Source: Sulfuritalea sp. (GTDB lineage Bacteria; Pseudomonadota; Gammaproteobacteria; Burkholderiales; Rhodocyclaceae). Taken from it: DNA of 64,000 nt. Location of the stretch: the NCBI RefSeq assembly GCF_017302275.1, contig NZ_JAFLDR010000021.1:1-64000 (forward strand), given 5' to 3'. Within the stretch, counting starts at the first letter, position 1. Each line of letters begins with the position of its first letter. The notes beneath the pieces are model-generated. The model did no database searches and had not been told where the DNA came from. It saw only the letters and a list, made by a program, of their open reading frames with translations. This document shows positions 1,359 to 62,496 of this stretch, one piece after another. The translations under genes and the position numbers were made by a program.

Positions 1359-2069
1359 TCAGTCCTTCAGCGCCCGCGCCAGCACGCGATTCTCGACCCG
1401 GTTCGCGCCGTGCGCCTTCAGCGTGCGCGCCAGCTCGTCGAGCGTGGCACCGGTGGTCATGACATCGTCAACCACCAGTACGTTCATTCCGGCGAGGTCG
1501 ATGTCGCATTCGAAGGCGTGGCGGATGTTTTTCGCGCGCTCCTTCCAGGGCAGGCTGGCTTGCGGCGTGGTGTCGCGATGGCGGCGGACGTGGCGAATAT
1601 CCAGCGGAGCGCCGCAGGATCGCGCCAGCGGCCGGGCGAGTTCCAGCGCCTGGTTGAAGCCGCGCTCGGCCAGCCGCGGCGCCGCGAGCGGAACCGGCAG
1701 GATCAGGTCGGGGGCAGGCGAGGGCCGGAGCATGCGGGCGATTTCGCGCCCGAGAAAGTCGGCGCTGGCAAGACGGTGCGCGTACTTCAGCGACTGGACC
1801 AGGCGATCGAGCGGGAACTCGTAGCGGAATACGGCCCGAGTGGCATCGAAGTGCGGCGGGTGCCTGAGGCAGGCGCCGCAGGTTTGCGCACCCGGGGTCG
1901 GCAGCGCGCAGACGGGACAGCATTCGGGCGACAGGCGCGGCAGGGCCTCGGTACATGCGGCGCAGAGCAGGCTGTCGCCGGCGGCGGCGCGGCAAAGCAG
2001 GCAATTCTGCGGGATGACGGCGGCGAAGCCGTGGCGCAGGGCCTTGGCCACACGGGCTGCAATTGACAA
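1359..2069 (-). CDS. comF: ComF family protein (competence-associated phosphoribosyltransferase-like)
   Basis: The 236-residue product has the ComF layout. The N-terminus carries Cys pairs (CLLC, CAAC, CPVC, CGAC) expected to bind zinc. The C-terminal phosphoribosyltransferase-type domain has the PRPP-binding loop [13 protein letters not shown] near residue 200. In naturally transformable bacteria ComF takes part in handling incoming single-stranded DNA; in many others its role is not settled. The gene is divergent from bioB with 56 bp between starts. Positions 1755-1777 carry a copy of the dispersed 23-bp word found across this window, read here as RLASADF, a different frame from most other copies. 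Confidence 0.93.
1755..1777 (+). repeat. dispersed 23-bp word, copy in comF
   Basis: The plus strand reads AAAGTCGGCGCTGGC, then AAG, then ACGGT. The reverse complement shares its first 22 bases with the two copies beside the chemoreceptor genes. comF reads the complementary strand in the frame giving RLASADF. Confidence 0.85.
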
Positions 2070-2125
2070 GCCGGGCTCCTTCCACCAAGATTCGCGCCTC
2101 CCCGCATTCTAGCGAGTCCCCTGCG

Positions 2126-3115
2126 ATGACTGCCACCGCCACTGCCCAACCTGCAGCCCAAGTCCACGCCACGACGCCGCTTCCGGCGCTGCGTTGGAGC
2201 ACTGATGCCCTGGTCGCCCTGTTCGAGCTGCCGTTCAACGACCTGCTGTTCCGCGCGCAGGAAGTGCACCGCGAGCACCACCAGCCCAATGCGGTCCAGT
2301 TGTCGACCCTGTTGTCGATCAAGACCGGCGGCTGTTCCGAGGACTGCGGCTATTGCTCGCAATCGGCGCACCACGGCGAGGCCGAGCGCGAGGCGCTGCT
2401 GGACGTTGACGCGGTGGTCAGCGCGGCCAAGGCTGCCAAGGACAAGGGCGCCACGCGCTTCTGCATGGGCGCGGCCTGGCGCGGTCCCAAAGACAAGGAC
2501 CTTGATCAGGTGGCGGGCATGATAGCCGCGGTCAAGGCGCTGGGCATGGAAACCTGCGTCACGCTGGGCATGCTCAAGCCCGGCCAGGCCGACAAGCTGA
2601 AGGCAGCCGGGCTCGACTATTACAACCACAACCTCGACACCGCGCCGGAGTTCTACGGTCAGGTGATCAGCACGCATAGCCAGCAGGATCGCTTCGATAC
2701 CCTGGATCAGGTGCGCGCCGCCGGCATCAATGTCTGCTGCGGCGGCATCGTCGGCATGGGCGAGACGCGCCGCGCGCGCGCCTCGCTGCTGGCGGAACTG
2801 GCCAACCTGGCGCCGCCGCCTGAATCGGTGCCGATCAACCAGTTGGTGCCGATGCCCGGCACGCCGCTGGAAAATGCGCCGCCGCTGGACCCCTTCGAAT
2901 TCGTGCGCACCATCGCCGTGGCGCGCATCATCATGCCGACTTCATTGGTGCGCCTCTCTGCCGGGCGCCAGGAGATGAGCGACGAACTGCAGGCCCTGTG
3001 CTTTCTCGCCGGCGCCAACTCGATCTTCTACGGCGACAAGCTGCTGACGGCCGACAATCCCGAAGCGGGGCGCGACGAGGCCTTGTTCAAGCGCCTGGGA
3101 CTGCACGCCGCCTGA
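2126..3115 (+). CDS. bioB: biotin synthase BioB
   Basis: This is the radical SAM enzyme that inserts sulfur into dethiobiotin to make biotin. The radical-SAM cluster ligands are visible as Cys70, Cys74 and Cys77 in [12 protein letters not shown]. Further family signatures are [13 protein letters not shown], which contains cysteines expected to bind the [2Fe-2S] cluster, and VRLSAGR near the C-terminus. The product is 329 residues, close to the usual 315-350. ATG 2126 is preferred over an in-frame ATG at 2063 because the 21 extra residues do not resemble BioB and would overlap the start of comF. bioC follows after 146 bp. No bioF, bioA or bioD is nearby. Confidence 0.97.
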
Positions 3116-3261
3116 GAATAAATCTACTGCGCGTGCCGGATCGGGGCTTGGGCGGTGCTCACTATCCTCATGCACGACAAAGTACATTCCGGTAGCTGCG
3201 CTCCGGCCGCACCCCGCTGCGGCCCGCTCGCTACGATTTCTTCACAGGCTCTGGCATCGTA

Positions 3262-4080
3262 ATGCGCGGCGACTTCTCCACGGCCGCCGCGACTTACCAC
3301 TCTGCGGCGGTCCTCGCCCGCGAAGTGGGCGCTCGCATGGCGCAGCGCCTCGACCTGGTAAAGATTGCTCCGCAGCGGGTTGCCGACATCGGCTGCGCCA
3401 CCGGCGACGGCATCCGCGAGCTGCAGCGGCGCTACCCCAAGGCGCAGCCGCTGGCGGTCGATTACGCCTTGCCCATGCTGCACGCCGTGCGCCGCGGCAC
3501 CCCGCGCCTGCAGCGCCTCATGGGGCGCGGCCCGCGGCTGCTGAATGCCGATGTGCGCGCCCTGCCGCTGGCAGCGGGCAGCGTCGGCCTGGTCTGGTCG
3601 AACCTGATGCTGCACTGGCTGGACGAGCCCCTGCCCGCCTTCCGCGAACTGCACCGTGTGCTGGAAGTCGGCGGCCTGCTGTGCTTCGCCACTCTGGGGC
3701 CGGATACGCTCAAGGAATTGCGCGAGGCGGCTGCAAGAGTCGGCGCTGGAGATACGGCGAAGCGCTTCCTCGACATGCATGACCTGGGCGACATGCTGGT
3801 CGGCGCCGGCTTTGGCGACCCGGTGATGGACATGGAAATGATCACCCTGACCTATCCCGGCCCGCGCGCCTTTCTCGCCGACCAGCGCCACCTCGGCGTG
3901 CGCGACGGATTGCTGGGTCGCCAGGGCTGGCGCGACTGGCGCCGCATCTTTGCCGCCTGGAGCCGCGATGCCGACGGGCGCTTGCCGGCGAGCTTCGAGA
4001 TCGTCTTCGGCCATGCCTGGAAACCCGAACCGCGGCAGATCGCCGATGGCCGTGCCGTGATCCGGTTCCAGTCGCGATGA
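3262..4080 (+). CDS. bioC: malonyl-ACP O-methyltransferase BioC
   Basis: This is an SAM-dependent methyltransferase of 272 residues. SAM-binding motif I is VADIGCATGDG (residues 40-50). The N-terminal AAATYHSAAVLAREVGARM is typical of BioC, which methylates malonyl-ACP to start pimelate synthesis for biotin. Its place downstream of bioB supports the assignment. The N-terminus is slightly short: many BioC proteins carry about ten more residues before the AAATY motif. The frame is open upstream of 3262, but no better start codon is seen. The gene contains a copy of the dispersed 23-bp word, encoding RVGAGDTA. Its stop overlaps the ATG of the next small gene. Confidence 0.9.
   Translation: MRGDFSTAAATYHSAAVLAREVGARMAQRLDLVKIAPQRVADIGCATGDGIRELQRRYPKAQPLAVDYALPMLHAVRRGTPRLQRLMGRGPRLLNADVRALPLAAGSVGLVWSNLMLHWLDEPLPAFRELHRVLEVGGLLCFATLGPDTLKELREAAARVGAGDTAKRFLDMHDLGDMLVGAGFGDPVMDMEMITLTYPGPRAFLADQRHLGVRDGLLGRQGWRDWRRIFAAWSRDADGRLPASFEIVFGHAWKPEPRQIADGRAVIRFQSR
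3736..3758 (+). repeat. dispersed 23-bp word, copy in bioC
   Basis: Reads AGAGTCGGCGCTGGA, then GAT, then ACGGC. It is preceded by CTGCA, a longer left flank shared with the copy at 43187 and nearly with the one at 24236 (TTGCA). Translated in frame as RVGAGDTA. Confidence 0.85.
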
Positions 4081-4229
4081 AGCGCGCCAGGCAAAGGCAC
4101 CTGAAGCCGCGCAACCCGGTGGCGATAGCCCCGCTGCTGAAAAAGGGCGGCGCACACCAGCGCAAGGACAAGCGCGCCAGCCGCGCGCGGCAGAAGTCCG
4201 CGTTGCGGCGGCACGACACCGAAGCCTGA
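4077..4229 (+). CDS. small basic protein, 50 aa
   Basis: A short gene coupled to bioC by an ATGA start/stop overlap. The 50-residue product is very basic, with about 18 Lys/Arg. It contains RNPVAIAPLLKKGGAHQRKD followed by an Arg/Lys-rich helix and ends HDTEA. Small proteins with an R-N-P-V-A...K-G-G-x-H core are widespread in proteobacteria as conserved hypotheticals; I know of no established function. The charge suggests nucleic-acid or ribosome binding, which is inference. Coding potential is supported by the overlap with bioC and a TGA stop after a clean basic sequence. Confidence 0.7.
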   Translation: MKRARQRHLKPRNPVAIAPLLKKGGAHQRKDKRASRARQKSALRRHDTEA

Positions 4230-4316
4230 GCTTCTTTCCTCCGGAATCCGACCGTCCCGTGCGGCCCGGCGATGGCGCTCGCGCCTTTGCGCCATTCACC
4301 TACGTGAAATCCACTA

Positions 4317-4351
4317 TTGCGCATTGTGAAGATACATTTTACAATGCGCAA
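4317..4351 (+). promoter_or_regulatory. perfect 11-bp inverted repeat overlapping a likely aceE promoter
   Basis: TTGCGCATTGT (4317-4327) is repeated exactly as its reverse complement ACAATGCGCAA (4341-4351), with 13 bp between. The same bases can serve as a sigma70 promoter: TTGCGC, 17 bp, TACAAT (4340-4345). A regulator bound to the dyad would cover the promoter, so it is probably a repressor site controlling the pyruvate dehydrogenase operon. The regulator gene is not in the window. The arrangement resembles PdhR control, but the sequence is not the enterobacterial PdhR box. Confidence 0.7.
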
Positions 4352-4513
4352 CATTCGCAGCCTGCCCGGGCATCAAACCGGACTATGCTGCGAAAGAAAA
4401 ACGTTGTGGATGCCGCTGTGCAGGCCGATCCCTGCGACGCATCCATGGCGTGACGAGCAGGACGTCGGCGGGACGATCTCCCGCTGGCGCTCACCAACAG
4501 ACGAGGAGATTTC
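4352..4513 (+). other. aceE 5' leader
   Basis: About 160 bp between the predicted promoter/operator and the aceE ATG. It ends with GAGGAG, a good ribosome binding site. A 22-codon frame (4385-4453) lies inside but has no convincing ribosome binding site. No riboswitch fold was recognised. Confidence 0.5.
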
Positions 4514-7192: not shown

Positions 7193-8899
7193 ATGGCCAA
7201 CATAGTCGAAGTGAAAGTCCCGGACATCGGCGACTTCAAGGATGTGCCGGTGATCGAACTGCTGGTCAAGGTCGGCGACACCGTGAAAGCCGAGGATTCG
7301 CTGATCACCCTGGAGTCGGACAAGGCGACCATGGATGTGCCCTCGCCGGTTTCCGGCGTGGTGACCGAGTTGAAGCTGAAGGTCGGCGACAAGGTGGCGG
7401 AAGGCAGTCTGGTCGCACTGATCGACAGCGCCGCCGCGGGTCAGGCGGCCGCTCCCGCTGCGGCCCCGGCTGCGGCCGCGCCTGTAGCGCCGGCCCCGGC
7501 AAGTCCGGCGGCGCCGGCAAGCTCGGCGGCCTCGGTGGTCGAGGTTCGTGTCCCCGACATCGGCGACTTCAAGGACGTGCCGATCATCGGACTGCTGGTC
7601 AAGGTCGGCGATACGGTGAAGGCCGAGGATTCGCTGATGACCCTGGAGTCGGACAAGGCGACCATGGACATTCCCAGCCCGGTCTCCGGTGTCGTCAGCG
7701 AGCTCAAGGTGAAGGTCGGCGACAAGGTGGCCGAGGGCGTGCTGCTGGCACTGGTAAAGGTCAGCGCTGGCGCTACGGCGGTTGCGGCTCCCGTTGCCGC
7801 GGCGCCAGCGGTCGCGGCTGCAGTTACTGCGGCCGCAGCCGTCGCGGCCCCTGCGGCAGCGCCGGCAGCGAGCTCAGGCGCCGGGGCGGATTATCGTCCG
7901 GGCGATAACGAACTGATTTCCTCCCCGCCCCGCGTCACCATGCTGACGCCGGCCGACCGCCTGACCGGCAAGGCGGCCCATGCCAGCCCATCGGTGCGCC
8001 GCTTCGCCCGCGAGCTCGGCGTCGATGTGAGCAAGGTGGCGGGCAGCGGGCCGAAGGGCCGCATCCTGCAAAGCGACATCCAAGCCTACGTCAAGGGTAT
8101 GCTCAGCGCACCGCCGCCGGCAGCACCCGCGGCGGCGGCTTCCGGCGGGGGCCTTGATCTCCTGCCCTGGCCGAAGATCGACTTCAGTAAGTTCGGGCCG
8201 ATCGACGTCCAGCCGCTGTCGCGGATCAAGAAGATTTCCGGCGCCAACCTCTCGCGCAACTGGGTGATGATTCCCGCCGTCACCTACCACGAGGACGCCG
8301 ACATCACCGACCTCGAAGCCTTCCGCGTGCAGATCAACAAGGAAAACGAGAAGGCCGGCCCAGATGGTAAAACCAGCAAGCTGACCATGCTCGCCTTCCT
8401 GATCAAGGCTGTTGTCCGGGCGATGCAGAAGTATCCCGAGTTCAACTCGTCCATCGATGGCGACAATCTGGTGATGAAGAAGTACTTCAACATCGGCTTC
8501 GCCGCCGACACGCCCAACGGCCTGATGGTGCCGGTGATCAAGAACGCCGAGAGCAAGGGTGTCTTCGAGCTGGCGAAGGAAAGCGGCGACCTGGCCAAGC
8601 AGGCGCGCGAGGGCAAGTTGAAGCCTGCCGACATGCAGGGCGCCTGCTTCACCATTTCCAGCCTCGGCGGCATCGGCGGCACCTACTTCGCGCCCATCGT
8701 CAATGCGCCGGAAGTGGCGATCCTCGGCGTCAACAAGTCGGCGATGAAGCCGGTGTGGGACGGCAAGCAATTCGTGCCGCGCCTGACCCTGCCGCTGTCG
8801 CTGACCGCGGACCACCGCGTGATCGACGGCGCGCTGGCTACGCGCTTCAACGTCTATCTGGCGCAACTCTTGGCCGACATGCGGAGAAGCATGCTGTGA
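7193..8899 (+). CDS. aceF: dihydrolipoamide acetyltransferase (E2 of pyruvate dehydrogenase)
   Basis: A 568-residue protein with two N-terminal lipoyl domains (about 1-78 and 115-190), each with the lipoylation site ESDKATMD. The lipoyl lysines are K44 and K154. Ala/Pro-rich swinging linkers follow. The peripheral subunit-binding domain is at about 264-300 (ASPSVRRFARELGVDVSKVA), and the acyltransferase domain ends with the catalytic DHRVIDG (His about 541). E. coli AceF has three lipoyl domains; here the third copy is on Lpd. The linker after the second domain contains a diverged copy of the dispersed 23-bp word (KVSAGATA). Its stop overlaps the GTG start of bph (GTGA). Confidence 0.97.
   Translation: MANIVEVKVPDIGDFKDVPVIELLVKVGDTVKAEDSLITLESDKATMDVPSPVSGVVTELKLKVGDKVAEGSLVALIDSAAAGQAAAPAAAPAAAAPVAPAPASPAAPASSAASVVEVRVPDIGDFKDVPIIGLLVKVGDTVKAEDSLMTLESDKATMDIPSPVSGVVSELKVKVGDKVAEGVLLALVKVSAGATAVAAPVAAAPAVAAAVTAAAAVAAPAAAPAASSGAGADYRPGDNELISSPPRVTMLTPADRLTGKAAHASPSVRRFARELGVDVSKVAGSGPKGRILQSDIQAYVKGMLSAPPPAAPAAAASGGGLDLLPWPKIDFSKFGPIDVQPLSRIKKISGANLSRNWVMIPAVTYHEDADITDLEAFRVQINKENEKAGPDGKTSKLTMLAFLIKAVVRAMQKYPEFNSSIDGDNLVMKKYFNIGFAADTPNGLMVPVIKNAESKGVFELAKESGDLAKQAREGKLKPADMQGACFTISSLGGIGGTYFAPIVNAPEVAILGVNKSAMKPVWDGKQFVPRLTLPLSLTADHRVIDGALATRFNVYLAQLLADMRRSML
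7758..7779 (+). repeat. dispersed 23-bp word, diverged copy in aceF
   Basis: Reads AGGTCAGCGCTGGC, then GCT, then ACGGC. It differs from the consensus mainly by one base (GTCAGCGC for GTCGGCGC). It lies at the end of the second lipoyl domain and is read as KVSAGATA. Confidence 0.7.
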
Positions 8900-9477: not shown

Positions 9478-11269
9478 CGTCGTTGAAGTGAAGGTACCCG
9501 ACATCGGCGACTTCAAGGATGTGCCGGTCATCGAAGTCCTGGTCAAGGTCGGCGACACGGTCAAGGCCGAGGATTCGCTGATCACCCTGGAATCGGACAA
9601 GGCCACCATGGATGTGCCTTCGCCGGTATCCGGCGTGGTGACGGAGCTGAAGATGAAGGTCGGCGACAAGGTCGCAGAGGGAACACTGGTGGCATTGGTG
9701 AAAGTCGGCGCTGGCGCCACGGCGGGGGCGCCCGCTCAGGCGGCACCAGCACCGGCCGTCGCCCCTGCAGCTCCGGCCGCACCGGTTGCGGCTCCGATTG
9801 CCGCCAGCGCGACTGGCAAATTCGCCGGCAAGGCCGACCTCGAATGCGAAATGCTGGTGCTGGGCGCCGGTCCCGGCGGTTATTCCGCCGCTTTCCGTGC
9901 TGCCGACCTCGGCATGAAGACGGTCATCGTCGAACGCTATGCGACGCTGGGCGGCGTCTGCCTCAATGTCGGCTGCATTCCCTCGAAGGCGCTGCTGCAC
10001 GTCGCAGCGGTGATGGAAGAGGCAGAACACGCGAGCGACCTCGGCATCAGCTTCGCCGCACCCAAGGTTGACATCGACAAGTTGCGCGCGCACAAGGAGA
10101 AGGTGGTCGGCAAGCTGACCGGCGGGCTGGCCGGCATGGCCAAGGCGCGCAAGGTCGAGACCGTGCGCGGCTATGGCCACTTCCTCGACGCCAACCATCT
10201 CGAAGTCGAGGAGACCACTGGCGCCTCACAAGAAAAGACCGGCGCCAGGAAGGTGATCCGCTTCCAGAAATGCATCATCGCCGCCGGCTCGGCGGCTTTC
10301 CACCTGCCGTTCATTCCCAGGGATCCGCGTATTGTCGATTCCACCGGTGCTCTGGAACTGCGCTTCGTGCCCAAGCGCATGCTGGTCATCGGTGGTGGCA
10401 TCATCGGCCTCGAAATGGCGACGGTGTATTCGACGCTGGGCACGAAGGTCGATGTGGTCGAGATGCTCGACGGCCTGATGCAGGGGCCGGATCGCGACTT
10501 GGTCAAAGTCTGGGAAAAGCAGAACGCCAAGCGTTTCGACAAGGTCATGCTGAAAACCAAGACCGTCGCTGTCGACGCCAAGCCGGACGGCCTCTGGGTC
10601 AAGTTCGAGGGCGAACAGGCGCCGGCGGAGGCGCAGTGCTACGACATGATCCTGCAATCGGCCGGACGCGCGCCGAACGGCAAGAAAATCGGCGCAGAGA
10701 AGGCAGGTGTGGTGGTGAACGAGCGAGGCTTCATCCCGGTCGACAGCCAGATGCGCACCGGCGTGCCCCACATCTTCGCCATCGGCGACATCGTCGGCAA
10801 CCCCATGCTGGCGCACAAGGCGGTGCATGAGGCCCACGTCGCGGCCGAAGCCGCGGCGGGGCAAAAGGCCCACTTCGACGCCACCGTGATTCCCGGCGTG
10901 GCCTACACCCATCCGGAGGTGGCCTGGGTCGGCGTCGGCGAGGACGAGGCGAAGAAAGCCGGGCGCAAGGTCAGCGTCGCCAAGTTCCCATGGGCGGCCT
11001 CCGGCCGGGCGATCGCCAACGGCGCCGACTATGGCTTCACCAAGCTGGTGTTCGATGAAGAAAGTCACCGCGTGATCGGCGGCAGCATCGTCGGCCCCAA
11101 CGCCGGCGACATGATCGGCGAAGTCGCCCTGGCGATCGAGATGGGCGCCGATGCGGTGGATATCGGCAAGACCATCCATCCGCATCCGACCCTGGGCGAA
11201 ACCATAGGCATGGCGGCCGAAGTCGCGCATGGCTCTTGCACCGACCTGCCGCCGATGCGCAAAAAATGA
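9470..11269 (+). CDS. lpdA: dihydrolipoamide dehydrogenase (E3) with an N-terminal lipoyl domain
   Basis: A 599-residue flavoenzyme that re-oxidises dihydrolipoyl groups with NAD+. Residues 1-78 are a lipoyl domain (K44 in ESDKATMD) nearly identical to those of AceF. An Ala/Pro linker follows, then the FAD motif [14 protein letters not shown] (131-144), the redox-active disulfide Cys164/Cys169 ([13 protein letters not shown]), the NAD domain ([12 protein letters not shown]) and the C-terminal active-site base in HPHPTLGE (570-577). ATG 9470 is chosen because it begins the lipoyl domain; the longer frame upstream is the shadow of bph. The linker carries a copy of the dispersed word (KVGAGATA). 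Confidence 0.97.
9701..9723 (+). repeat. dispersed 23-bp word, copy in lpdA
   Basis: Reads AAAGTCGGCGCTGGC, then GCC, then ACGGC, a full consensus copy. It lies at the junction of the lipoyl domain and the linker and is read as KVGAGATA. Confidence 0.85.
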
Positions 11270-17515: not shown

Positions 17516-17538
17516 GCCGTCTTGCCAGCGCCGACTTT
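17516..17538 (-). repeat. dispersed 23-bp word, copy downstream of mcp (intergenic)
   Basis: The plus strand reads GCCGT, CTT, GCCAGCGCCGACTTT; the minus strand is the full consensus with central AAG. It lies between the cheR start and the stop of the receptor gene at 17558, at the very edge of the 1.03-kb direct repeat. Confidence 0.85.
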
Positions 17539-18542
17539 CAGGAATTGGATGAAGTGATCAGAACTCTTCCCACTGTTCGGTGGAATCGGCGAGATGGGGA
17601 GGGGGCGTCTTGCGGCCGGCGGAAGGGCGTTGCGCCGGGCGGGAAGCCGGCGGCAACTGGCGCGGCGTCGCATCGCGCAGCACCGGAGCCGGCAGCGTGG
17701 AACGGTGGGAGGACGAAGCGCCCTCGGCCAGCTTGAACATGCTCACCGTCTGCACCAGACCGCGCGCCTGCTCTTCCAGGCTCTCGGCGGCGGCGGCGGC
17801 TTCTTCCACCAGCGCCGCGTTCTGCTGCGTCACCTCGTCCATCTGGCCCACCGCCTGGGTGGTCTGCTCGATGCCGGAGGATTGTTCCTTCGAGGCCGAG
17901 GCGATTTCGGTCACCAGCCCAGCCACCTGCTGGAAGCTCGCCACCACCCCGTCCATCGTCGTCCCGGCTTCCTGCACCAGCTTGGCGCCGGACTCGACCT
18001 TGTCCACCGACTCGGCGATCAGGGTCTTGATCTCCTTGGCCGCCGTGGCACTGCGCTGCGCCAGGTTGCGCACTTCGCTGGCCACCACGGCAAAGCCGCG
18101 GCCCTGCTCCCCGGCACGGGCGGCTTCCACCGCCGCGTTGAGCGCCAGGATGTTGGTCTGGAAAGCGATCGAATCGATCACGCCGATGATGTCCGAGATC
18201 TTCTTCGAGCTGGCCTGGATCTCGCCCATGGTCACCACCACTTCCTTCACCACCCGGCCGCCCTTGACCACCCCGGCGTTCGAGGTCTTGGCCAGGTCAT
18301 TGGCCTGGCGCGCGTTCTCGGCGTTCTGGCGCACCGTGGCGTTGAGCTCTTCCATGGCCGACGAGGTTTCCTCCAGGCTGGAGGCCTGCTCTTCGGTGCG
18401 GCTGGACAGATCGGAATTGCCGGCGGCGATTTCCTGCGAGGCGATGTTGATCGCTTCGGTCGCGTCCTTGATGCGGCCCACCACTTCGCGCAGCCGTTCG
18501 ATGGTGGTGTTGGTGTCGTCCTTCAACTGGCCGAAGATGCCT
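17516..18542 (-). repeat. 1.03-kb near-identical direct repeat, copy 1 (receptor 3' end)
   Basis: It covers the signalling half of the receptor gene at 17558 plus about 40 bp beyond its stop. It is nearly identical in nucleotides to 19964-20993. The left edge is GCCGTCTTGCC (preceded by different bases in each copy) and the right edge is GAAGATGCCT. Differences are scattered single bases plus small indels in the Pro-rich tail. Confidence 0.9.
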
Positions 18543-19930
18543 GAGAAGTCGCCCTCCATGGTTTGCGTCAGATCGCCGTGGGCTACCCGCGAGAGTATTT
18601 CAGAGGTGGATTTCAGCGACTTCTCGGTCGCTTCCAGCATGCCGTTGATGCCTTCGGAGAGCGTGGCAAAAAAGCCATTCTTTCCCGAGAGCGCAATGCG
18701 GCAATCGAGCTTGCCAAGGCTGGCGCCATCAACGATGGTGGAGATTTCGCGTTCGATGGCAATTTCATCAGTACGATCCAGCCACTCCCCGACCGAGCCC
18801 AGCCTTTCATTATTGGCGGTAAACACCGGGTTCGTGATGACGCGATAGGTGCGTCCACCAATGTCCATCTCGGTTTGCACGGTCGTTTCAAGCGCCGACA
18901 GCCGTTTCAATGCCGCGTCCGGATCGGCATACAGCGTGCCGATGCTGCTGCCGACGAATCCGTCGACGCTGAAATTGGCGTTCTGGGCCTTGAGTTGCGG
19001 TTCGATGCGCCGCAGGGTCTCCAGAAGCTTTCTGTTGGCGTAAATGACGCGACCTTCCGGATTGGCGATGCGGACCGGAGTGCTGACATTGTCCAACGCA
19101 ATCTTTACCCTAAGGGTTTCGTCGGCCTGGCGCTTGGTTTCGGCGACTTCGAAGCCCATGCGCGTCTGGAGAACTTGCAGGCCTTGCATGGCCTTGCCGA
19201 TCTCGTCGTTGCGTGCAATGTCGATTACGTTGGAGTAGTTGCCGCGGACGATGTTGGCAAACGTGTCGGTAATTTCGGCGATCGGTTGGCGGATGGCGCG
19301 CTCGATGCCGACGACCGTGAGTGCTGCCAGCGCAAGCGTCGACATGCCGGCGAGCCAGGCCACCAAGGGCAGCCCGAGCAATACGCCGGCGAGGGTTCCG
19401 CCGCCCGCGACCAGGATCGCCAGCATGCCCGCCCAAAGCTTCATGCCAATGTTCCAGTCCTGAATCCGGATGCCACCGGGCTTGACGGCCTTGCCGAAGC
19501 GGATGACGAGTTGCCCCTGGCGCTTTTCACGGAACAGTCGATAAGCCGCCTCGTGGGCCTCTATGGCTTCCCTGGCAGCCTTGCGACGCACCGAGATGTA
19601 GCCGGCGACCTGGCCGTTTTCGACAATCGGCGCCGCGTTGGCCAGCACCCAGTAGTAGTCGCCATTTTTGCAACGGTTCTTGACGTAACCGGTCCATGGC
19701 CGCCCCGCCTTGAGCGTATCCCACAGGTCCTGGAAGGCCTCCACCGGCATGTCGGGATGGCGCACGAGGTTGTGTGGTTCGCCGATCAGCTCGGCCTCGG
19801 TGAAGCCGCTGATGTCGAGGAAGTCCTTGTTGATGTAGGTCATGCGTCCCTTGAGATCGGTCTTGGAAACGATCAAGGTCGCGTCCGTGAGCTGGACCTC
19901 ATTGGTGGTGACCGGCAGATTGGTACGCAT
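17558..19930 (-). CDS. methyl-accepting chemotaxis protein with N-terminal PAS domain (Aer-like)
   Basis: 790 residues. Residues 1-115 form a PAS domain ([24 protein letters not shown]) like that of the redox sensor Aer. A hydrophobic hairpin at about 165-210 is the membrane anchor, with no periplasmic domain. HAMP and a second PAS-like region (about 280-390) follow, then the methylation and signalling helices with the hairpin tip EVRNLAQ region. The tail ends DSTEQWEEF, an xWxxF-type tether. This layout predicts an internal redox or energy sensor; FAD binding would need testing. The last ~330 residues are almost the same as in the next receptor. Confidence 0.95.
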
Positions 19931-19963
19931 GGCAAAACTCCTTGGCTACTGTGCGTTGCTGGC

Positions 19964-19986
19964 GCCGTCTTGCCAGCGCCGACTTT
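19964..19986 (-). repeat. dispersed 23-bp word, copy between the two mcp genes
   Basis: Same sequence as the copy at 17516-17538 and part of the duplicated kilobase. It lies 20 bp past the stop of the receptor at 20006 and 34 bp before the start of the receptor at 17558-19930. Confidence 0.85.
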
Positions 19987-22950: not shown

Positions 22951-25173
22951 TCAGGCCGCGGCCGGCAGGCTGGCCCTGGCCATCTGCGCCAGCGCCGCGA
23001 TGTCGAGGATCAGGGCGACGTGGCCGTCGCCCATGATGGTGGCTCCGGAGACGCCGGCCACCTTGCGGTAATTGGTTTCCAGGCTCTTGATCACCACCTG
23101 GTGCTGCCCGAGCAGGGCGTCGATGAACAGTGCGGCCTTGATGCCGTCGGCTTCGACCACCACCATGATTCCGTGCTCAAGGCGCGTCTCGGCGCCGGGA
23201 ATGCCGAAGATTTCGTGCAAGGCCACAACCGGGAGGAATTCGCCGCGCACCTGGATCAGGCGCTCGACGCCGGCGATGCCGCGCACCATGTTGCGCTCGA
23301 CCTGCAGCGATTCGACCACGTAGCCCAGCGGGATGATGTAGGTTTCCTTGCCGGCGGCCACCGACATGCCGTCGAGGATGGCCAGGGTCAGCGGCAGGCG
23401 CACCGTCATGCGCGTGCCGATGCCGCGCATGGATTCGATGTCGACACGGCCGCCCATGGCCCCGATGTTGCGCTTGACCACGTCCATGCCGACCCCACGA
23501 CCGGAGACTTCGGTCACCTGCTCGGCGGTGGAGAAGCCGGGTTCGAAGATCAACTGCCAGACTTCGCCGTCGCTCATCTGCTCATTGACGTTGAAGCCGC
23601 GTTCGCGCGCCTTCGACAGGATGCGCGGGCGGTCGAGGCCGGCGCCGTCGTCGGCGACCTCGATGACGATGTTGCCGCCCTGATGGTAGGCCTTGAGCGT
23701 GATATTGCCGACCGGCGATTTGCCCTTGGCAATGCGCTCGTCGGGCATTTCGATGCCGTGATCGAGGCTGTTGCGCACCAGGTGCGTCAGCGGGTCGGCG
23801 ATGCGTTCGATCAGACCCTTGTCGAGTTCCGTGCCCTCGCCGATGGTCTTGAGCTCGATCTGCTTGTTCAGCTTTTGCGCCAGGTCGCGCACCACGCGCG
23901 GGAAGCGCGAGAACACCACCGAGATCGGCATCATGCGGATCGACATCACCGATTCCTGCATGTCGCGGGTGTTGCGTTCGAGTTGCGCCAGCCCGTTGTG
24001 CAGGCGTTCGAATTGCACCGGGTCGAGCACCGAGGCGGATTGCGCCAGCATGGCCTGGGTGATCACCAGTTCGCCGACCAGGTTGATCAGCTTGTCCACC
24101 TTGGGAATGTCGACGCGAATCGAGGACTCGGTGGCGCCGCCGCGCGGTGCGGCGCGGCGGTCGCCGCGCTCACGGTCGCGCCGCTCGACGGCGGGCGGCG
24201 CGACGGCGAGCGCGGGGGCCGGGCCATCGGTTGCAAGAGTCGGCGCTGGCGCTACGGCGGCGTTGGCCGGTGGCGTCGGAAGGTCGACAAAAAAGCCGTG
24301 GGAGTCGTCCGTCGCCACGGTGGGTTGCGGCGTGCCGGCGGGCGCGTCATCGAACAGGCCCCAGGCGGCGTCGGCAGCGGGTACCGGTGTAGACGATCCG
24401 GTGGGTGCGTCGTCGAAGAGACCCCAGGCATCGCCATTCTTTGGTTCGGCGGCAGGGGCATCATCAAAGAAGCCGTAACTGTCGTCGCCGGTCGCGTCGT
24501 CGCCGATCCGTATGCTGTCGCTGCGGGCGACGAACTCGACCATGCCGCGCAGCACCGCCGGGTCGGCCTCGGTGGAGACTTCGATGCGCCAGGCGCCGGA
24601 AGCGTCGCCGGGCCTTGCCACCACGCGCGCCGGCCACTGGGTCGAAATCTCGTCGACCAGGTTTCGTACCGCGGATGCGGCGGCGTCGGCGTCGCCTTCG
24701 TCAAGGGCGAAGCTGACCGCGACATTTGTGCTGACGGTGGCGTCGGGCGTCGGTTCGCCGTTCTCCGCCGCGGAATCGCGCGGTGCATCGTCGGCCAGGG
24801 CGGCCAGGCGCGTGCAGGTGTTGCCGACCCGTGCCGGATCGGCGGCCTCGCCTCCGCGATGGGCCGCCAGCAGGTCCTTGAGCAGGTCGCCGGCATCGAG
24901 GAAGGCATCGATCATGGCGGCGCGCAAGGCCAGTTCGCCCTTGCGGATGCGATCGAGAAGGTTTTCCAGCACATGCGTGACTTCGGCCAGGTCGGTGAAA
25001 CCGAAGGTTCCCGCTGAGCCCTTGATCGAATGCGCCGCGCGGAAGATGGCGTTGAGTTGTTCCGGGTCCGGGTCCTCGATATCGAGATCCAGCAGCAGCG
25101 CTTCCATGCCGGCGAGGTGCTCCTGGGCTTCCTCGAAGAAGATCTGATAGAACTGGCTGAGATCGACTGACAT
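22951..25173 (-). CDS. cheA: chemotaxis sensor histidine kinase CheA
   Basis: 740 residues. P1 HPt domain with phospho-accepting His48 ([15 protein letters not shown]); a variable region (about 130-345); P3 dimerisation; P4 ATPase with N box [12 protein letters not shown] and G1 box [10 protein letters not shown]5 CheW-like regulatory domain. The variable region contains four copies of a short motif of the form GxFDDAP (about 232-299) separated by 10-14 residues, and a copy of the dispersed 23-bp word read in reverse as AVAPAPTL. It phosphorylates CheY and CheB. Confidence 0.98.
24236..24258 (+). repeat. dispersed 23-bp word, copy in cheA
   Basis: The plus strand reads AGAGTCGGCGCTGGC, then GCT, then ACGGC, with TTGCA before it. 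cheA lies on the other strand and translates it as AVAPAPTL, inside the flexible linker. Confidence 0.85.
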
Positions 25174-33336: not shown

Positions 33337-34064
33337 CACCAATCTCCCCAAAGTGCCATCATTGCCGCCACCGCGCCGGGTCCGGCGGTCTCGGTGCGCA
33401 GCACCCGCGGTCCCAGCCTAATCGCATGGAAGCCGGCGGCATGCGCAGCGAGCAACTCGCTTTCCTCGAAGCCGCCCTCCGGGCCAACCAGCAGGCTGAT
33501 CGGCGCATCCGGCGCGGCGACATCGCGCAGAAAGCCGCCGGCGCCCGGCGCACAAATGAACCGCAGCCCATTCTCCCGCGCCGCGATGCCGAGGTATTGC
33601 GGCAGATCAAGGATAGGCGCCACGGCCGGAATGCGGTTGCGCCCGGACTGCTCGCAGGCGGCGATGGCGATGTTGCGCCAGTGTTCGACGCGACGCTCGG
33701 CGCGCTCGCCGGAAAGCCGGATGACGCTGCGTCTTGCCGCCACCGGCTGGATGCGCGCGATGCCGAGCTCGACGGCCTTCTGCACCACGAAATCCATCTT
33801 GTCGCCGGCGGGCAGGGCCTGCACCAGCGTCAGCACCAGCGGCGGCTCGCATTCCGCATCGTCGAACTCGACCAGGTTGGCGCGCAGGGCCTTGCCCGCC
33901 GGATGCAGGGTCGCGCGCCATTGGCCGCCTCGACCGTCGAACAGGATTGCCGTGTCGCCGGCGCCGACTCTGAGGACTTTCAGGGCATGATGTGCCGCCA
34001 CGGCCGCCAGTTCGACCGTGGCGCCGGGGTGGAGCGGAAAGGGGCAGAAGAATCTCGGTATCAT
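33336..34064 (-). CDS. rsmE: 16S rRNA (uracil1498-N3)-methyltransferase
   Basis: 242 residues from ATG 34064, the usual RsmE length (243 in E. coli). The SPOUT-fold signatures are LLVGPEGGFEESEL and LGPRVLRTETAGPGAV. A much longer upstream frame is ignored because its extra part has no family match. The gene contains a dispersed-word copy, read as RVGAGDTA, at a place where E. coli RsmE has RMGPGQAL: the alignment shows no length change, so the word replaced sequence rather than being inserted. First gene of rsmE-pap-argA. Confidence 0.96.
   Translation of the reverse strand: MIPRFFCPFPLHPGATVELAAVAAHHALKVLRVGAGDTAILFDGRGGQWRATLHPAGKALRANLVEFDDAECEPPLVLTLVQALPAGDKMDFVVQKAVELGIARIQPVAARRSVIRLSGERAERRVEHWRNIAIAACEQSGRNRIPAVAPILDLPQYLGIAARENGLRFICAPGAGGFLRDVAAPDAPISLLVGPEGGFEESELLAAHAAGFHAIRLGPRVLRTETAGPGAVAAMMALWGDW
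33949..33971 (-). repeat. dispersed 23-bp word, copy in rsmE
   Basis: The plus strand reads GCCGT, GTC, GCCGGCGCCGACTCT. rsmE, on the minus strand, reads it as RVGAGDTA. Confidence 0.8.
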
Positions 34065-36337: not shown

Positions 36338-37057
36338 ATGCTTGAAGCCCTGATCTTCGATGTCGATGGCACGCTGGCCGATACCGAGCGCGACGGCCAT
36401 CGTCCGGCTTTCAACGCCGCCTTTGCCGAGATGGGGCTGGATTGGCACTGGGACGCGGCCCTCTACGGCGAACTGCTGGAAGTGACCGGAGGCAAGGAGC
36501 GCATCCGCTTCTTCTGCGAACGGCATGAGCCGGAGTTTCTGCAGCAGGCGGATGCAGAGGTCCGCATCAGGGAGCTGCATGCCGCCAAGACGCGGCATTA
36601 TGTGGAACTTTGCGCGCAGGGCATTCCGCTGCGCCCCGGGGTCGAACGCCTGTTGCGCGAAGCGAGGGCAGCCGGCCTGCGTTTGGCCATTGCCACCACC
36701 ACCACGCCGGAAAACATCAGCGCCTTGCTGGCCCCGGACTTGCTGGCGCTGTTCGAAAAAGTCGGCGCCGGCGATACGGTGCCGAACAAGAAGCCGGCGC
36801 CGGACATCTACCAGTGGGTGCTGGCCCAACTGGGCCTGCCGGCTGCGGCCTGCCTCGCCATCGAGGATTCCGCGAACGGCCTCAGGGCCAGTCGCGGCGC
36901 CGGCCTGGCGACCGTGATCACGCGCACGGCCTACACCGATGACCACGATTTTTCCGGCGCCTTGGCGATACTGCCCGACCTCGACGGGGTGACGCTGGAG
37001 ACCCTGCGCCGGATCCACGGCAATGGAATTGATATAAGTGCAAACTTATCATCGTAA
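36338..37057 (+). CDS. cbbY: xylulose-1,5-bisphosphate phosphatase CbbY (HAD superfamily)
   Basis: 239 residues from ATG 36338. HAD motif I is ALIFDVDGTLADTE, with two catalytic Asp; the conserved CbbY segment GDTVPNKKPAPDIYQWVL is present, with later motifs AIEDSANGL. CbbY destroys xylulose-1,5-bisphosphate, a misfire product of RuBisCO that blocks the enzyme. It is the first gene downstream of the CbbR operator and ends inside the next operator, in front of cbbL. A dispersed-word copy encodes EKVGAGDTV. Confidence 0.93.
   Translation: MLEALIFDVDGTLADTERDGHRPAFNAAFAEMGLDWHWDAALYGELLEVTGGKERIRFFCERHEPEFLQQADAEVRIRELHAAKTRHYVELCAQGIPLRPGVERLLREARAAGLRLAIATTTTPENISALLAPDLLALFEKVGAGDTVPNKKPAPDIYQWVLAQLGLPAAACLAIEDSANGLRASRGAGLATVITRTAYTDDHDFSGALAILPDLDGVTLETLRRIHGNGIDISANLSS
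36758..36780 (+). repeat. dispersed 23-bp word, copy in cbbY
   Basis: Reads AAAGTCGGCGCCGGC, then GAT, then ACGGT. It coincides with a conserved CbbY segment, so this copy may be partly fortuitous. Confidence 0.6.
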
Positions 37058-43186: not shown

Positions 43187-43209
43187 AGAGTCGGCGCTGG
43201 CGGGACGGC
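43187..43209 (+). repeat. dispersed 23-bp word, intergenic copy upstream of fbp
   Basis: Reads AGAGTCGGCGCTGGC, then GGG, then ACGGC, preceded by CTGCA as in bioC. It lies 10 bp before the CbbR operator of fbp. Confidence 0.85.
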
Positions 43210-53982: not shown

Positions 53983-54768
53983 ATGAGCGATTCCTTCGCC
54001 GTGCCGCCAGCGCCGACTTCCGGTGGCACGTCCTTGCCGGTTGTGCGCCGGATCGGATTTGCCGCGCCCCTGCGCTGGCTGGGGCTCGGTTGGCGGGATC
54101 TCTGGCGGCAGCCGGCGGCGAGCCTGTTCTACGGCATTGCGATCATGGTGGCCGGAGTCGTGATACTCGGTGTCACCGCCAGCCTGCCCTATCTGTTCGC
54201 CGCCGCCGTAACGGGCTTCCTGCTGGTGGCGCCGATGCTCGCGGCGGGACTTTACGAACTTTCCCGACGCTACCTGGCCGGCGAACCTGCAGCGCTGACG
54301 GATTCCATGCTGGCTTGGCGGCGCAATCCCTCGGCCCTGGTCGGCTTTGGCCTGCTCTCGATCCTGGCCGGCACCGCCTGGCAGGTGGCTTCCGTGGTCA
54401 TCGTCGCCTTGTTCTACCAAGGCCCGGCGCTGGCACCGCAGGCGATGATCATCGAGGTCCTGGTCAATCCGCGGCATTACCTGATGTTCTTCATCTACAT
54501 GTGCAGCGGCGGTTTGCTCGCGGCGGTGGTGTTTGCGCTAAGCGTGGTATCGATGCCGATGCTGGTCGATCGCCGCGGCGACCTGCTGGCCGCCTTGTCC
54601 ACCAGTCTCAATGCGGTGGCGGAGAATCCCTTGCCGCTGGCCTTCTGGGCTGCGCTGCTGATGCTGCTGACCGGCATCGGATTCGCCACTGCGCTTCTGG
54701 GACTGATCGTGATCATGCCCTGGCTCGGCCATGCCAGCTTCCACGCCTACAAGGAACTGGTCGAGTAG
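53983..54768 (+). CDS. DUF2189-type multi-pass membrane protein
   Basis: 261 residues from ATG 53983 with about six membrane helices and the conserved N-terminal RRIGFAAPLRWLGLGWRDLW. The family is annotated DUF2189 in proteobacteria; function unknown. A copy of the dispersed word, read in reverse as AVPPAPTS, lies in the N-terminal tail just before the first conserved segment. Confidence 0.85.
   Translation: MSDSFAVPPAPTSGGTSLPVVRRIGFAAPLRWLGLGWRDLWRQPAASLFYGIAIMVAGVVILGVTASLPYLFAAAVTGFLLVAPMLAAGLYELSRRYLAGEPAALTDSMLAWRRNPSALVGFGLLSILAGTAWQVASVVIVALFYQGPALAPQAMIIEVLVNPRHYLMFFIYMCSGGLLAAVVFALSVVSMPMLVDRRGDLLAALSTSLNAVAENPLPLAFWAALLMLLTGIGFATALLGLIVIMPWLGHASFHAYKELVE
53999..54021 (-). repeat. 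dispersed 23-bp word, copy in the DUF2189 gene
   Basis: The plus strand reads GCCGT, GCC, GCCAGCGCCGACTTC. The gene on the plus strand reads it as AVPPAPTS. Confidence 0.85.
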
Positions 54769-59305: not shown

Positions 59306-59318
59306 GGAGTCATCGCAC

Positions 59319-59362
59319 AAAGCCCGCAACCGCTTGAATGCGATGCGGGCTTTGCGCTTTTT
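59319..59362 (+). terminator. rho-independent terminator after the DUF2892 gene
   Basis: AAAGCCCGCA (59319-59328) pairs with TGCGGGCTTT (59344-59353), followed by GCGCTTTTT. Confidence 0.8.
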
Positions 59363-59385
59363 GCGAGGAGCAAACTCGGGGGCCG

Positions 59386-60387
59386 TCAGAACTCCATTCC
59401 CAGGTTGATCGAATCAAAGGTCTGGCGCCCGCCGTTGCCGTTGGCGGTGAAGAACTCCTCGCTGCGGCGCACCCGCGTCAGCGAGAACCGCAGCGCATCG
59501 ATGCGCACGCTGACGCCCGCGGTGAGGTCGTACACGTGCGGCCGTCGTTGCACGGAGGGACTGTCCCGAAACACTGTCCCGTCGAGGAAGATGTTGTGGG
59601 CAACGACCCGATGGTCGAGGCCGGCGAAAATCCACCACTCGATGCCCTGGGCGCGCGCCGGCTCGATGTCGCGGCGTATGTTCTTCAGCATCGCGCCGCC
59701 GGGCTCGATGGTGTCGGTGCCGAAGCCCGTCATGTTGCGGCCCAGTCGCAGCATGCCGCCGGCGCGGGCCAGGGTCAGGGTGGTGCCGACTGTGGCGCCG
59801 CCATGCGGAATCAGTTCCAGGTCCAGGCCATGCATGTCGCCGACCTTGTGCTTGCCCTTGGCGAGCCAGGAGACGAGGAAGGCCGGCTCGTTCGGAATCT
59901 GGTTGTGCCAGCCCATGGGTTTCGGCGAATCGATCAGCTTGTGCCAGCCGGACTGGATCTCCCGCCCCAGCGCGGCGGGGCCGACCACGCCGAGGTCGAT
60001 CTCAACCGTGTCGAGGCGGTTCTGCGTGGCCCGCTGCGCCACGCCGCCGAGGTAGAGCCAGGCGGCCCATGGCCGGTCGAATGGCTGCGCGGCGCTGACC
60101 GTGATCGCCCTCGGCGTGTATAGGTTCTGGCCGAGGAAGAGGCCGAAGCGGACTTCGCTGCTGGCCTTGGGCGCGATGGCCTCGAGGATTTCGTTCGCCG
60201 GAAACTGCAGCAGGTCAAAGGAAGCGCCGCCGCCGAACTTGATGCCGTTGGTGTAGTAGCGGTCGGTGCGCGCCAGCAGGTCGTTTTCGATGAACAACTG
60301 CAATTCGCTGCCCTCGGGCGGACGCGCCTGGGCCGCGCCGATGGCGAGCGAGGCGAGAGTCGCGATGACGGCAATGGCGCGAAGCAT
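59386..60387 (-). CDS. LpxR-like outer membrane lipid A deacylase family protein (DUF2219)
   Basis: 333 residues from ATG 60387 with a signal peptide (MLRAIAVIATLASLAIGAA) and the family start FIENDLLARTDRYYTNGIKF, including the Asn-Asp pair used by LpxR. It ends in Phe, as outer-membrane barrels do. In Salmonella, LpxR removes the 3'-acyloxyacyl group of lipid A. Actual activity here is not shown. Confidence 0.85.
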   Translation of the reverse strand: MLRAIAVIATLASLAIGAAQARPPEGSELQLFIENDLLARTDRYYTNGIKFGGGASFDLLQFPANEILEAIAPKASSEVRFGLFLGQNLYTPRAITVSAAQPFDRPWAAWLYLGGVAQRATQNRLDTVEIDLGVVGPAALGREIQSGWHKLIDSPKPMGWHNQIPNEPAFLVSWLAKGKHKVGDMHGLDLELIPHGGATVGTTLTLARAGGMLRLGRNMTGFGTDTIEPGGAMLKNIRRDIEPARAQGIEWWIFAGLDHRVVAHNIFLDGTVFRDSPSVQRRPHVYDLTAGVSVRIDALRFSLTRVRRSEEFFTANGNGGRQTFDSINLGMEF

Positions 60388-60431
60388 CGGGTGGCGAGTG
60401 GCGGAGTGGCGGAGTGTCGTTGGCCCGCGCA

Positions 60432-61700
60432 TTATCGTCCTGGCGCGGCGGCGCTGGAGGCCAGCCAGCGCAGCGCGCCGTGACCGGCGGCACGCCCGCT
60501 GGCAAGGCAGGCGGTGAGCAGGTAGCCGCCGGTGGGCGCTTCCCAGTCCAGCATTTCGCCGGCGCAGAAGGTGCCGGGCAGATCACGCAGCATCAGGTTT
60601 TGATCGACCGCGGTGAACTCGATGCCTCCCGCGCTGCTGATCGCCTCGTCGAGCGGGCGTGGCGCAAGCACCGGGATCGGCAAGGCCTTGATCAGCGCAG
60701 CGAGGGTTTCGTTGCCGGCGAGCTGCTCCGGTGTGGCGAACTCGCGCAGCAGAGCCGCCTTGACGCCATCGATGCCGGCGCGGCGGCGCAGGTGGTTGGC
60801 CAGTGAATCGTGCCCGCGCGGGTGGCTGAGATCTTCAGCCAGCCGCCGCGGGGTGCGCCCCGGCGCGAGGTCGACCTGCAGCAGGGCGCTGCCGGTGGCT
60901 TCGATGCAGTCGCGCAAGGGCGCCGACAGTGAGTAGATCAGGCTGCCCTCGATGCCGTGGCGGGTGATGACGAACTCGCCTTCGCGCCGCGACGGCGATC
61001 CGTCGGAAGCAACGAAACTTATGGCGACGGACTTCACCGGCGTGCCGGCAAAGCGACTGCACAGGTGTTCGCTCCAGGCCACGTCGAAACCGCAGTTGGC
61101 CGGCCGCAGCGGCGCCACGCCTACGCCGCGCTGGCGCAGCAGGGTAACCCAGGCGCCGTCCGAGCCCAGCCGCGCCCAACTGCCGCCACCGAGGGCCAGC
61201 ACCGTGGCGCCAGCGCCGACTTTTGTTTCGCCGGCAGGTGTCGCAAAGCGCAGTGCGCCAGTGGCATCCCAGCCCAGCCAGCGATGCCGCGCACGGACCG
61301 TAACGCCGGCGGCGCGCAGCCGATGCAGCCAGGCGCGCAGCAGCGGCGCGGCCTTCATTTCGCGCGGGAAGACCCGTCCCGAACTGCCAACGAAGGTTTC
61401 GATGCCGAGCTCGCCAGCCCAGCGGCGCAGCTGCTCCGGGCCGAAGCCCTCCAGCCATTTCCCGACCTGCTCGCGGCGGGTGCCATAGCGAGAAAGAAAC
61501 CGGTCGCCCGGTTCCGAGTGCGTCAGGTTTAGGCCGCCGCGACCGGCCAGCAGGAATTTGCGACCGACCGAGGGCATGGCGTCGAACAGGTCGACAGGCC
61601 AGCCCGCGCCGCTGATGATTTCCGCCGCCATGAGGCCGGCTGGTCCGCCGCCGATCACGGCGACGCCGCGCCCGTAGATGGCCGATTCAGCGTCGTCCAA
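60432..61700 (-). CDS. HI0933-family NAD(P)/FAD-dependent flavoprotein
   Basis: About 422 residues. FAD motif [17 protein letters not shown] at the N-terminus and [20 protein letters not shown] at the C-terminus, typical of the HI0933/BaiN-type family, whose substrates are mostly unknown. No ATG is available before the FAD motif; TTG 61700, overlapping the ksgA stop region by 14 bp, is the most likely start. A dispersed-word copy encodes KVGAGATV in the middle. Confidence 0.85.
61202..61224 (-). repeat. dispersed 23-bp word, copy in the flavoprotein gene
   Basis: The plus strand reads ACCGT, GGC, GCCAGCGCCGACTTT. The gene reads it as KVGAGATV. Confidence 0.85.
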
Positions 61701-62496
61701 GGTCGGCCAGCGAATTGGCGAGGCGCACGTAGTCCGCCACCGGGATGTCCTCGGCGCGCGCCGTCGGGGGAATGCCCAGCGCCGCCAGCGCGGCCTCGTC
61801 AAGATAGCCGCGCAGGGTGTTACGCAGCATCTTGCGGCGCTGGGAGAACGCCGCCGTCACCACCCTGGCGAACAACTCGGAGTCGCTTGCCGTTCCGCCA
61901 GCGCCGACTCCTGAGAAATCGACCGGAATCATGCGCACGATGGCCGAGTCGACCCTGGGCGGCGGATTGAAGGCGCCCGGCGGCACGACGAACATGCGCT
62001 CCATGTGGAAGCGGTACTGCAGCATCACCGAGAGTCGGCCGAAATCCTTGCTGCCGGGTTCGGCCACCATGCGGTCGACCACCTCCTTCTGCAGCATGAA
62101 GTGCATGTCATACACCAGCGGCGCGAACCGGACCAGGTGGAACAGCAGCGGGCTGGATATGTTGTAGGGCAGGTTGCCGACGATCTTGAGCCGCCCTTCG
62201 TCCTTGAGCCTGGCGAAGTCGAATACCAGCGCGTCGCCCTCGTGGATCGTCAGCCGTTCGGGCGGAAAGCGTTGTTGCAGGCGCGCGATCAGGTCGCGAT
62301 CGATCTCGATCACGTGCAGGTGGTCGCAGCGCTCCAGCAGCGGTTCGGTGAGGGCGCCGAGGCCGGGGCCGATCTCGACCACGGTGTCGCCGGCGCGCGG
62401 TGCGATCGCGTCGACGATCCTGCGGATCACGCCGTCAGAGACCAGGAAGTTCTGCCCAAACCGCTTCCGGGCGACGTGCCCGGCGACGGACTTCAT
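61687..62496 (-). CDS. ksgA: 16S rRNA dimethyladenosine transferase
   Basis: 269 residues from ATG 62496. Starts [23 protein letters not shown] motif [14 protein letters not shown]; catalytic [10 protein letters not shown]. It dimethylates two adenines near the 3' end of 16S rRNA. A dispersed-word copy encodes GVGAGGTA in a loop about four residues longer than in E. coli KsgA. The ATG overlaps the stop of the upstream gene (ATGA). Confidence 0.97.
61889..61911 (-). repeat. dispersed 23-bp word, copy in ksgA
   Basis: The plus strand reads GCCGT, TCC, GCCAGCGCCGACTCC. ksgA reads it as GVGAGGTA. Confidence 0.85.

Follow-up and report, generated by a model that had tools for sequence, protein, structure and literature searches.

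A dispersed bipartite word in Sulfuritalea and neighbouring Rhodocyclaceae as a probable DNA uptake sequence

Sequence-specific uptake of DNA is named in two families, the Pasteurellaceae and the Neisseriaceae, in the passages of PMC5031613 that treat it. Eight dialects of the DNA uptake sequence (DUS) are described for the Neisseriaceae in sections of PMC3630211, and the uptake signal sequences (USS) of the Pasteurellaceae are of types with a core of AAGTGCGGT or ACAAGCGGT and AT-rich downstream parts, at a density of 200-800 per Mb (sections of PMC12616744). FimT has a conserved GRxR according to the relevant part of PMC8897410. Here we describe a word of approximately 24 bp that is dispersed through a 64,000-nucleotide stretch of a Sulfuritalea sp. 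(Rhodocyclaceae; NZ_JAFLDR010000021.1, positions 1 to 64,000, hereafter the window), through the rest of its genome and through the genomes of its relatives. We consider it likely that this word is a DNA uptake sequence of the Rhodocyclaceae, most likely of Sulfuritalea and neighbouring genera.

Abundance of the word inside and outside genes

Thirteen copies were found in the window with up to three mismatches allowed, seven on the plus and six on the minus strand, against a mean of 0.08 and a largest value of 2 in 100 dinucleotide shuffles; the initial annotation had reported at least 13 copies with this strand split and had judged them far above chance, and on both points it holds. In the whole genome (G000; 4,409,354 bases in 88 contigs), AGTCGGCGCYGGCNNNACGG with at most one mismatch occurred 357 times on the forward and 359 times on the reverse strand, a total of 716 or approximately 162 per Mb, while the same pattern read backwards occurred once. 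The word was refined on a 464-kb sample made up of the window and 20 further stretches, about a tenth of the genome. Alignment of the 93 places with up to three mismatches gave the bipartite form RRRAGTCGGCGCYGGCGNNACGGCG, in which the Y position is T in 56 and C in 37 places, the two gap bases are free and vary among copies, and the flanks beyond the word are not common to the copies. The real word is therefore slightly longer than the 23-base pattern first proposed, being purine-rich on its 5' side and continuing as ...GNNACGGCG on its 3' side; the shorter pattern is mismatch-free in six of the 13 window copies only (those starting at 1755, 9701, 17516, 19964, 36758 and 61201). In the 400 kb of the sample outside the window, places with zero to four mismatches numbered 33, 20, 4, 20 and 142, which separates approximately 57 real copies from a tail of chance matches. 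Density per stretch ranged from 0.5 to 3.5 per 10 kb outside a region of low G+C that is considered below.

With genes taken from our own gene caller (coding fraction 0.80 in the sample), the 70 copies with up to two mismatches divided into 43 genic, 25 intergenic and two straddling a gene end. Density was higher outside genes, at 27 copies in 91 kb (the two gene-end copies included) compared with 43 in 373 kb inside. Among the genic copies, 23 of 43 read K/R-V-G-A-G-x-T in the sense frame, four lie in another sense frame and 16 are antisense in two frames. The comparison with codon-preserving randomisation that the initial annotation had proposed was carried out with 50 shuffles of the sample, each keeping every protein and the codon make-up of each gene. 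Exact genic copies numbered 23, far above the shuffled mean of 0.20 (maximum 1), and those with at most one mismatch numbered 39 against a mean of 1.90 (maximum 4). The word is thus in excess of the codon-preserving expectation, and on both strands.

Copies in the window lie in and between genes of many kinds. On the plus strand, the mismatch-free copy at 1755..1777 is antisense within a ComF-family gene (1359-2069, minus strand) whose product matches Pfam DZR_2 and Pribosyltran above their cut-offs and NCBIfam GntX and comF below those of NCBI; the window thus carries a ComF-family gene with the word inside it. The copies at 3736..3758 and 7757..7779, each with two mismatches, lie within a methyltransferase-domain gene and between the domains of the pyruvate dehydrogenase E2 gene, and that at 9701..9723 (no mismatch) lies past the lipoyl domain of dihydrolipoamide dehydrogenase (E3). 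The remaining plus-strand copies are antisense within a CheA-like gene (24236..24258, one mismatch), within a CbbY-like HAD hydrolase gene (36758..36780, no mismatch) and upstream of the fructose-1,6-bisphosphatase gene in intergenic DNA (43187..43209, one mismatch). On the minus strand, mismatch-free copies at 17516..17538 and 19964..19986 each lie approximately 20 bp past the stop codon of one of two adjoining chemoreceptor genes. In this part of the window (17516-19986) the two genes share a nearly identical last 40 bp followed by one word each, and their sequences diverge immediately past the word. The other minus-strand copies are within rsmE (33949..33971, one mismatch), in intergenic DNA 38 bp past the SAICAR synthetase stop codon (53998..54020, one mismatch), within an HI0933-like flavoprotein gene (61201..61223, no mismatch) and within rsmA (61889..61911, two mismatches). 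Ten of the starting positions first given were exact and three were one base too high, the true starts being 7757, 53998 and 61201. The earlier division into ten genic and three intergenic copies did not stand, since our gene calls give nine and four, the intergenic ones being at 17516, 19964, 43187 and 53998.

Origin, distribution, dialects and splitting of the word

The sites in rsmE and rsmA were aligned across 30 genomes, our own and 29 congeners. The RsmE site is without an indel in all 30; it carries the canonical word free of mismatches in 20 and a dialect form, in which AGTTGG replaces AGTCGG, in three, and the other seven have one mismatch (G025, G026 and G028), two (G020 and G003), three (G021) or five (G017). 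Aligned with solved homologues, the RsmE and CbbY proteins of the window need no gap across the word, and their residues there thus arose by substitution in place; in RsmA the word sits where a loop is some four residues longer than in the homologues. The RsmA site could be read in 29 of the 30 genomes, with the mismatch-free word in eight, inserts in or beside the word in nine, and near-words or decayed forms in the rest. Copies originate in place by substitution. The word is conserved at synonymous positions at the RsmE site, where third-position entropy averaged 0.39 over the eight word codons compared with 0.93 over 100 codons outside, a count that leaves out the decayed G017 and G021.

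The word was found in all 30 sampled congeners, where allowing one mismatch gave 37 to 715 copies, and 30 genomes of other genera held zero to five. Across 395 genomes of the family, exact copies are dense in six genera: our own (g1, 10 to 451 in 23 genomes), g32 (165 in its single genome), g43 (at least 85 in 17 of 19 genomes, with none in G293 and five in G305), g62 (357 in its single genome), g70 (54 to 300, all four genomes) and g88 (70 to 211, all nine). Outside these the maximum was 12. Among the matches listed, named records bearing the word are mostly Sulfuritalea, Rugosibacter, Sulfurisoma and Rhodocyclaceae, with single matches under other names. Small clusters of exact words occur in G135 (C1:1461267-1502264) and on contig C104 of G109, whose genera have few such words elsewhere or none at all, and are possibly segments acquired from word-bearing donors. 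At least 120 stretches of viral contigs match the word and are not interpretable without their hosts; one contig, IMGVR_UViG_3300009945_000063 (L538), has five exact words, four of them at a spacing of 316 bp.

The letters of the word differ between lineages. The AGTTGG form (the T-dialect) is the main one in the congeners G001, G016 and G027, with 12, 5 and 8 exact copies in 127, 84 and 120 kb, respectively, against 1, 1 and 0 of the canonical form, and these three genomes are the ones that carry it at the RsmE site, where the change is synonymous. When k-mers were searched de novo, blind to the word, the word was recovered in G000 and the T-form in G001 and G027. The same search gave two new forms: AAACTCGGCGCYGGCGNGGCGGCG in G305 of g43, with halves ACTCGG...GCGGCG, and AAAAGTCAGTCCCSGCRRNACGGCG in G063 of another genus, with halves AAAAGTCAGTCCC...ACGGCG, these being drawn from 18 and 12 seed matches, respectively, in which the seeds fix their own letters. 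In G063, AGTC and ACGGCG stand at exactly the canonical spacing and register. In approximately 90-100-kb samples of G071, G034, G095, G032, G066 and G293 the search yielded no clear word, and a rare one is possible there. Dialects, then, track lineages.

The word has also decayed. G017 is nearly without it, with 37 copies genome-wide; a 140-kb sample contained no copy within one mismatch, and the de novo search found no replacement word. The top 12-mer of G017 was rejected as a new word as it is a coding repeat in one stretch. A long lysine/alanine-rich coding repeat lies in L457 (G017:C51:40001-60000) and is, by our own reading of its composition, histone H1-like. G025 and G021 are intermediate in word state, their assemblies being 10% and 4% contaminated, respectively.

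At the RsmA site of several congeners, palindromic inserts of approximately 24-45 bp interrupt the word, some in the gap and others separating AGT from CGG (rsmA loci L320, L315, L309, L316 and L330 of G028, G002, G016, G027 and G007). The insert core, searched for without the word in G000, G002, G005 and G022, gave 59 matches; at 21 of 30 insert loci there was a word part (up to two mismatches) within the surrounding 150 bases, whereas random 150-base segments drawn from these loci had one in 53 of 300 cases, so insert and word are strongly linked but the word-part flag lacks specificity. A composite pattern that takes in the AGT and CGG of the word (as at loci L365-L391) was found in 30 of the 395 family genomes (20 of 23 in g1, three of four in g70, six of nine in g88, and, in g47, a single copy in a genome with 12 words) and was absent from g32, g43, g62 and other sampled genera. 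Among the fetched loci, 40 of 46 readable composites continue into the rest of the word with up to three mismatches over 11 fixed letters, and by eye the hairpin letters vary while pairing persists in many copies. As the split form was not found in word-rich g32, g43 and g62, it looks secondary. The word probably serves a small palindromic element as its landing site; as a rarer alternative, split words may have a function of their own.

Biased uptake and its alternatives

Three sampled stretches of contig C1 of our genome (80-100, 120-140 and 160-180 kb) held no copy in their 60 kb and were of lower G+C (0.57-0.585), and the stretch at 200-220 kb held one copy, that is, one in 80 sampled kb. 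Ten proteins scanned from the word-free stretches included TraI, TraC/TraG, a coupling protein, TrfA, HipA and an N6-methylase, and these stretches also encode glutamate dehydrogenase, SHMT and a benzoate transporter. The region C1:80001-180000 (sampled as L143, L144 and L145) is probably a word-free conjugative plasmid or integrated element. A low G+C is not by itself enough to eliminate the word, because a stretch of equally low G+C (L155, 0.583) holds two copies. The word is thus scarce in foreign mobile DNA as judged on this one region, a comparison partly confounded by G+C. Elsewhere on the contig (C1:40001-60000, L142), a single open reading frame of over 6,600 codons, predicted to encode a giant protein, fills 20 kb.

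The genomic pattern is established: the word is enriched and widespread, originates in place, is conserved synonymously at one site, has dialects, decays, and is absent from the conjugative DNA sampled. We infer biased DNA uptake from the excess of the word over coding need, its substitution in place, its dialects, which unrelated genes within a species have in common, its loss in single lineages and its scarcity in conjugative DNA; the initial annotation had suggested a word of the uptake type, which is in keeping with the presence of the word throughout the genus, its dialects and decay, and the lack of copies in the sampled conjugative DNA. We propose that the type IV pilus may carry a sequence-specific DNA receptor, which would bind double-stranded fragments through the half-sites AAAGTCGGCGCYGGC and ACGGCG, about two helical turns, so that word-bearing fragments would be taken up, and recombined, more often. 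Chance near-matches would then drift towards the word by molecular drive wherever coding permits, a change in receptor specificity would lead to a genome-wide shift of the word and hence a dialect, and where the bias was lost the words would decay. A more far-reaching proposal, which taken as a whole we find somewhat doubtful, is that the Rhodocyclaceae have a third, independently evolved system of self-DNA recognition, with a bipartite word of approximately 24 bp in at least four dialects. Its receptor would be related neither to ComP nor to PpdA/ComN, and palindromic mini-elements would exploit the system by inserting specifically within words.

Candidates for the receptor were sought among the pilins. 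Our genome has 17 N-methyl matches, 15 of them above the cut-off, and reading of the sequences suggests short PilA-like pilins, a pilE-fimT-pilW cluster, an msh-type cluster and type II secretion pseudopilins. Two adjoining, very short type IV pilins (G000:C12:132942-133679; L009 and L010), each of 57 residues from the motif, resemble the Geobacter-type short PilA in length and N-terminus. The PilE- and FimT-like proteins matched pilins in the PDB with phmmer and no chain named ComP; no ComP profile was run. The FimT-like protein diverges strongly among species that share the word. Pilin families were compared across nine genomes, including G017, where the word is nearly lost, and G027, which has a dialect, and none of the larger shared families is missing from G017; four of the families, inspected in more detail, yielded no established receptor. 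The best lead, and no more than a weak one, may be a pilin with the motif ALPGDD, matched in 47 of 51 genomes searched. In its tree of 52 rows, word states cluster beyond shuffles: the canonical state requires nine changes, a number as low in four of 500 shuffles, and no shuffle in 200 was as low for all five states. The T-dialect genomes G016 and G027 form a supported group with word-poor G025, apart from canonical congeners, and the latter form supported groups with canonical genomes of other genera. We claim no receptor, because the near-copies and paralogous rows included in this tree can produce such clustering.

Several points weigh against an uptake sequence. ComEC, which together with the pilins of our own genome counts in favour of uptake, was present in all 39 genomes tested and does not discriminate, since word-less genera have it just as word-rich ones do. 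PilE is 40-65% identical among word-rich species where the match is long, is matched partially (33-44%) in word-rich G008, G091, G177, G271 and G350, and is present in word-less or word-poor G017, G293 and G071. The ALPGDD tree has word-less G066, G089, G071, G034 and G036 near canonical groups and places canonical G218, G020, G271 and G350 outside them, and no receptor was established in the pilin comparisons over nine genomes or in the one family traced in 51. Furthermore, the density of approximately 162 per Mb is lower than the 200-800 USS per Mb given in sections of PMC12616744, the absence from conjugative DNA is confounded in part by low G+C, and no natural transformation of Sulfuritalea was found in the open-licence literature.

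Of the other explanations, the one that survives best, itself unlikely, is that an abundant protein of the nucleoid or of chromosome segregation binds at the word and that selection for chromosome organisation has spread its sites. The equal numbers on both strands would suit such a site, and a changing DNA-binding protein could also yield dialects and decay. However, some 18 fixed positions is long for sites of this kind, selection at each of approximately 700 sites in unrelated genes would have to outweigh coding constraint, and there is no copy in the sampled conjugative DNA. There is no arm or strand bias either: in the complete genome G002, which begins at dnaA, the plus-strand copies among the matches listed number 42 at 12-728 kb (717 kb) and 23 at 3,017-3,406 kb (389 kb), equal densities on both arms. 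Another possibility, which we regard as very improbable, is a signal linked to recombination or restriction, either Chi-like or a methyltransferase target, which has the genome-wide overrepresentation in its favour; the word greatly exceeds Chi sites in length, Chi sites have a strand bias that follows replication, and neither the genome (357 and 359 copies by strand) nor, among the matches listed, the arms of G002 have such a bias. We know of no methyltransferase with such a site, and none was searched for.

Close behind, and to our minds slightly less probable again, is a miniature mobile repeat resembling repetitive extragenic palindromes or miniature inverted-repeat transposable elements, or the remnant of one. 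Palindromic mini-elements do sit within some words, so a link with mobile repeats exists, but ordinary copies have nothing in common past the word, the gap bases vary, RsmE and CbbY are gapless against solved homologues (RsmA has its difference in loop length), the RsmE site lacks indels in the 30 genomes, and the split form, missing from three word-rich genera, looks secondary. Confinement of the copies to one family of mobile element, which the initial annotation had named as a refutation of its reading, was therefore not what we found; the copies are not insertions with a shared length past a core, and split-word insertions are separate and rarer. Finally, the idea that the word is a by-product of protein or codon usage (KVGAGDT-like peptides, preferred codons) has in its favour the 23 genic copies in one reading frame and can practically be dismissed, as four frames over both strands are in use, 27 of the 70 copies are not wholly genic and the signal vanishes under synonymous shuffling.

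Comparison with known uptake sequences

No description of the word, nor of a 'DNA uptake sequence' in conjunction with Rhodocyclaceae, was found in the open-licence literature (subscription papers and preprints being outside its scope). Among the matches listed, open-licence works that mention Sulfuritalea do not use that phrase, and six 12-letter forms of the word returned works unrelated by title. The initial annotation had also stated that the sequence matched no uptake word known to it, and the letters fit neither the DUS nor the USS family. If the word is an uptake sequence, natural competence is predicted in freshwater and groundwater bacteria for which no report of it was found in that literature, and word-rich, dialect, decaying and word-less sister species provide a natural series for mapping the receptor.

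As with the DUS of the Neisseriaceae described in sections of PMC3630211, the word is a non-palindromic sequence in hundreds to thousands of copies, with dialects that follow clades and relatives that lack it. Unlike the DUS, which is read by the minor pilin ComP, it has unrelated letters, is bipartite and approximately 24 bp long rather than 10-13 bp, and is less dense. Its consensus is not a ATGCCGTCTGAA-family word with an invariant CTG core, and CTG is not invariant here, as 37 of the 93 aligned places have C for Y. Resemblance to the USS of the Pasteurellaceae, with its candidate receptor PpdA/ComN, lies in the discontinuous motif, the second conserved part downstream and the dialects; however, the consensus has neither USS core, and the second part is ACGGCG, in contrast to the AT-rich parts in the sections of PMC12616744 that describe them. 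As for the FimT-mediated uptake of Gammaproteobacteria, our genome has a FimT/GspH-like minor pilin in the pilE-fimT-pilW cluster, named by sequence reading, in which the GRxR given in the relevant part of PMC8897410 reads GIAR. The trait looks like a self-recognition tag for DNA uptake of a kind previously described mainly in two other families. If this is true, a third family, free-living and environmental, has a word and dialects of its own, and preference for own DNA becomes testable by comparison outside pathogens and hosts.

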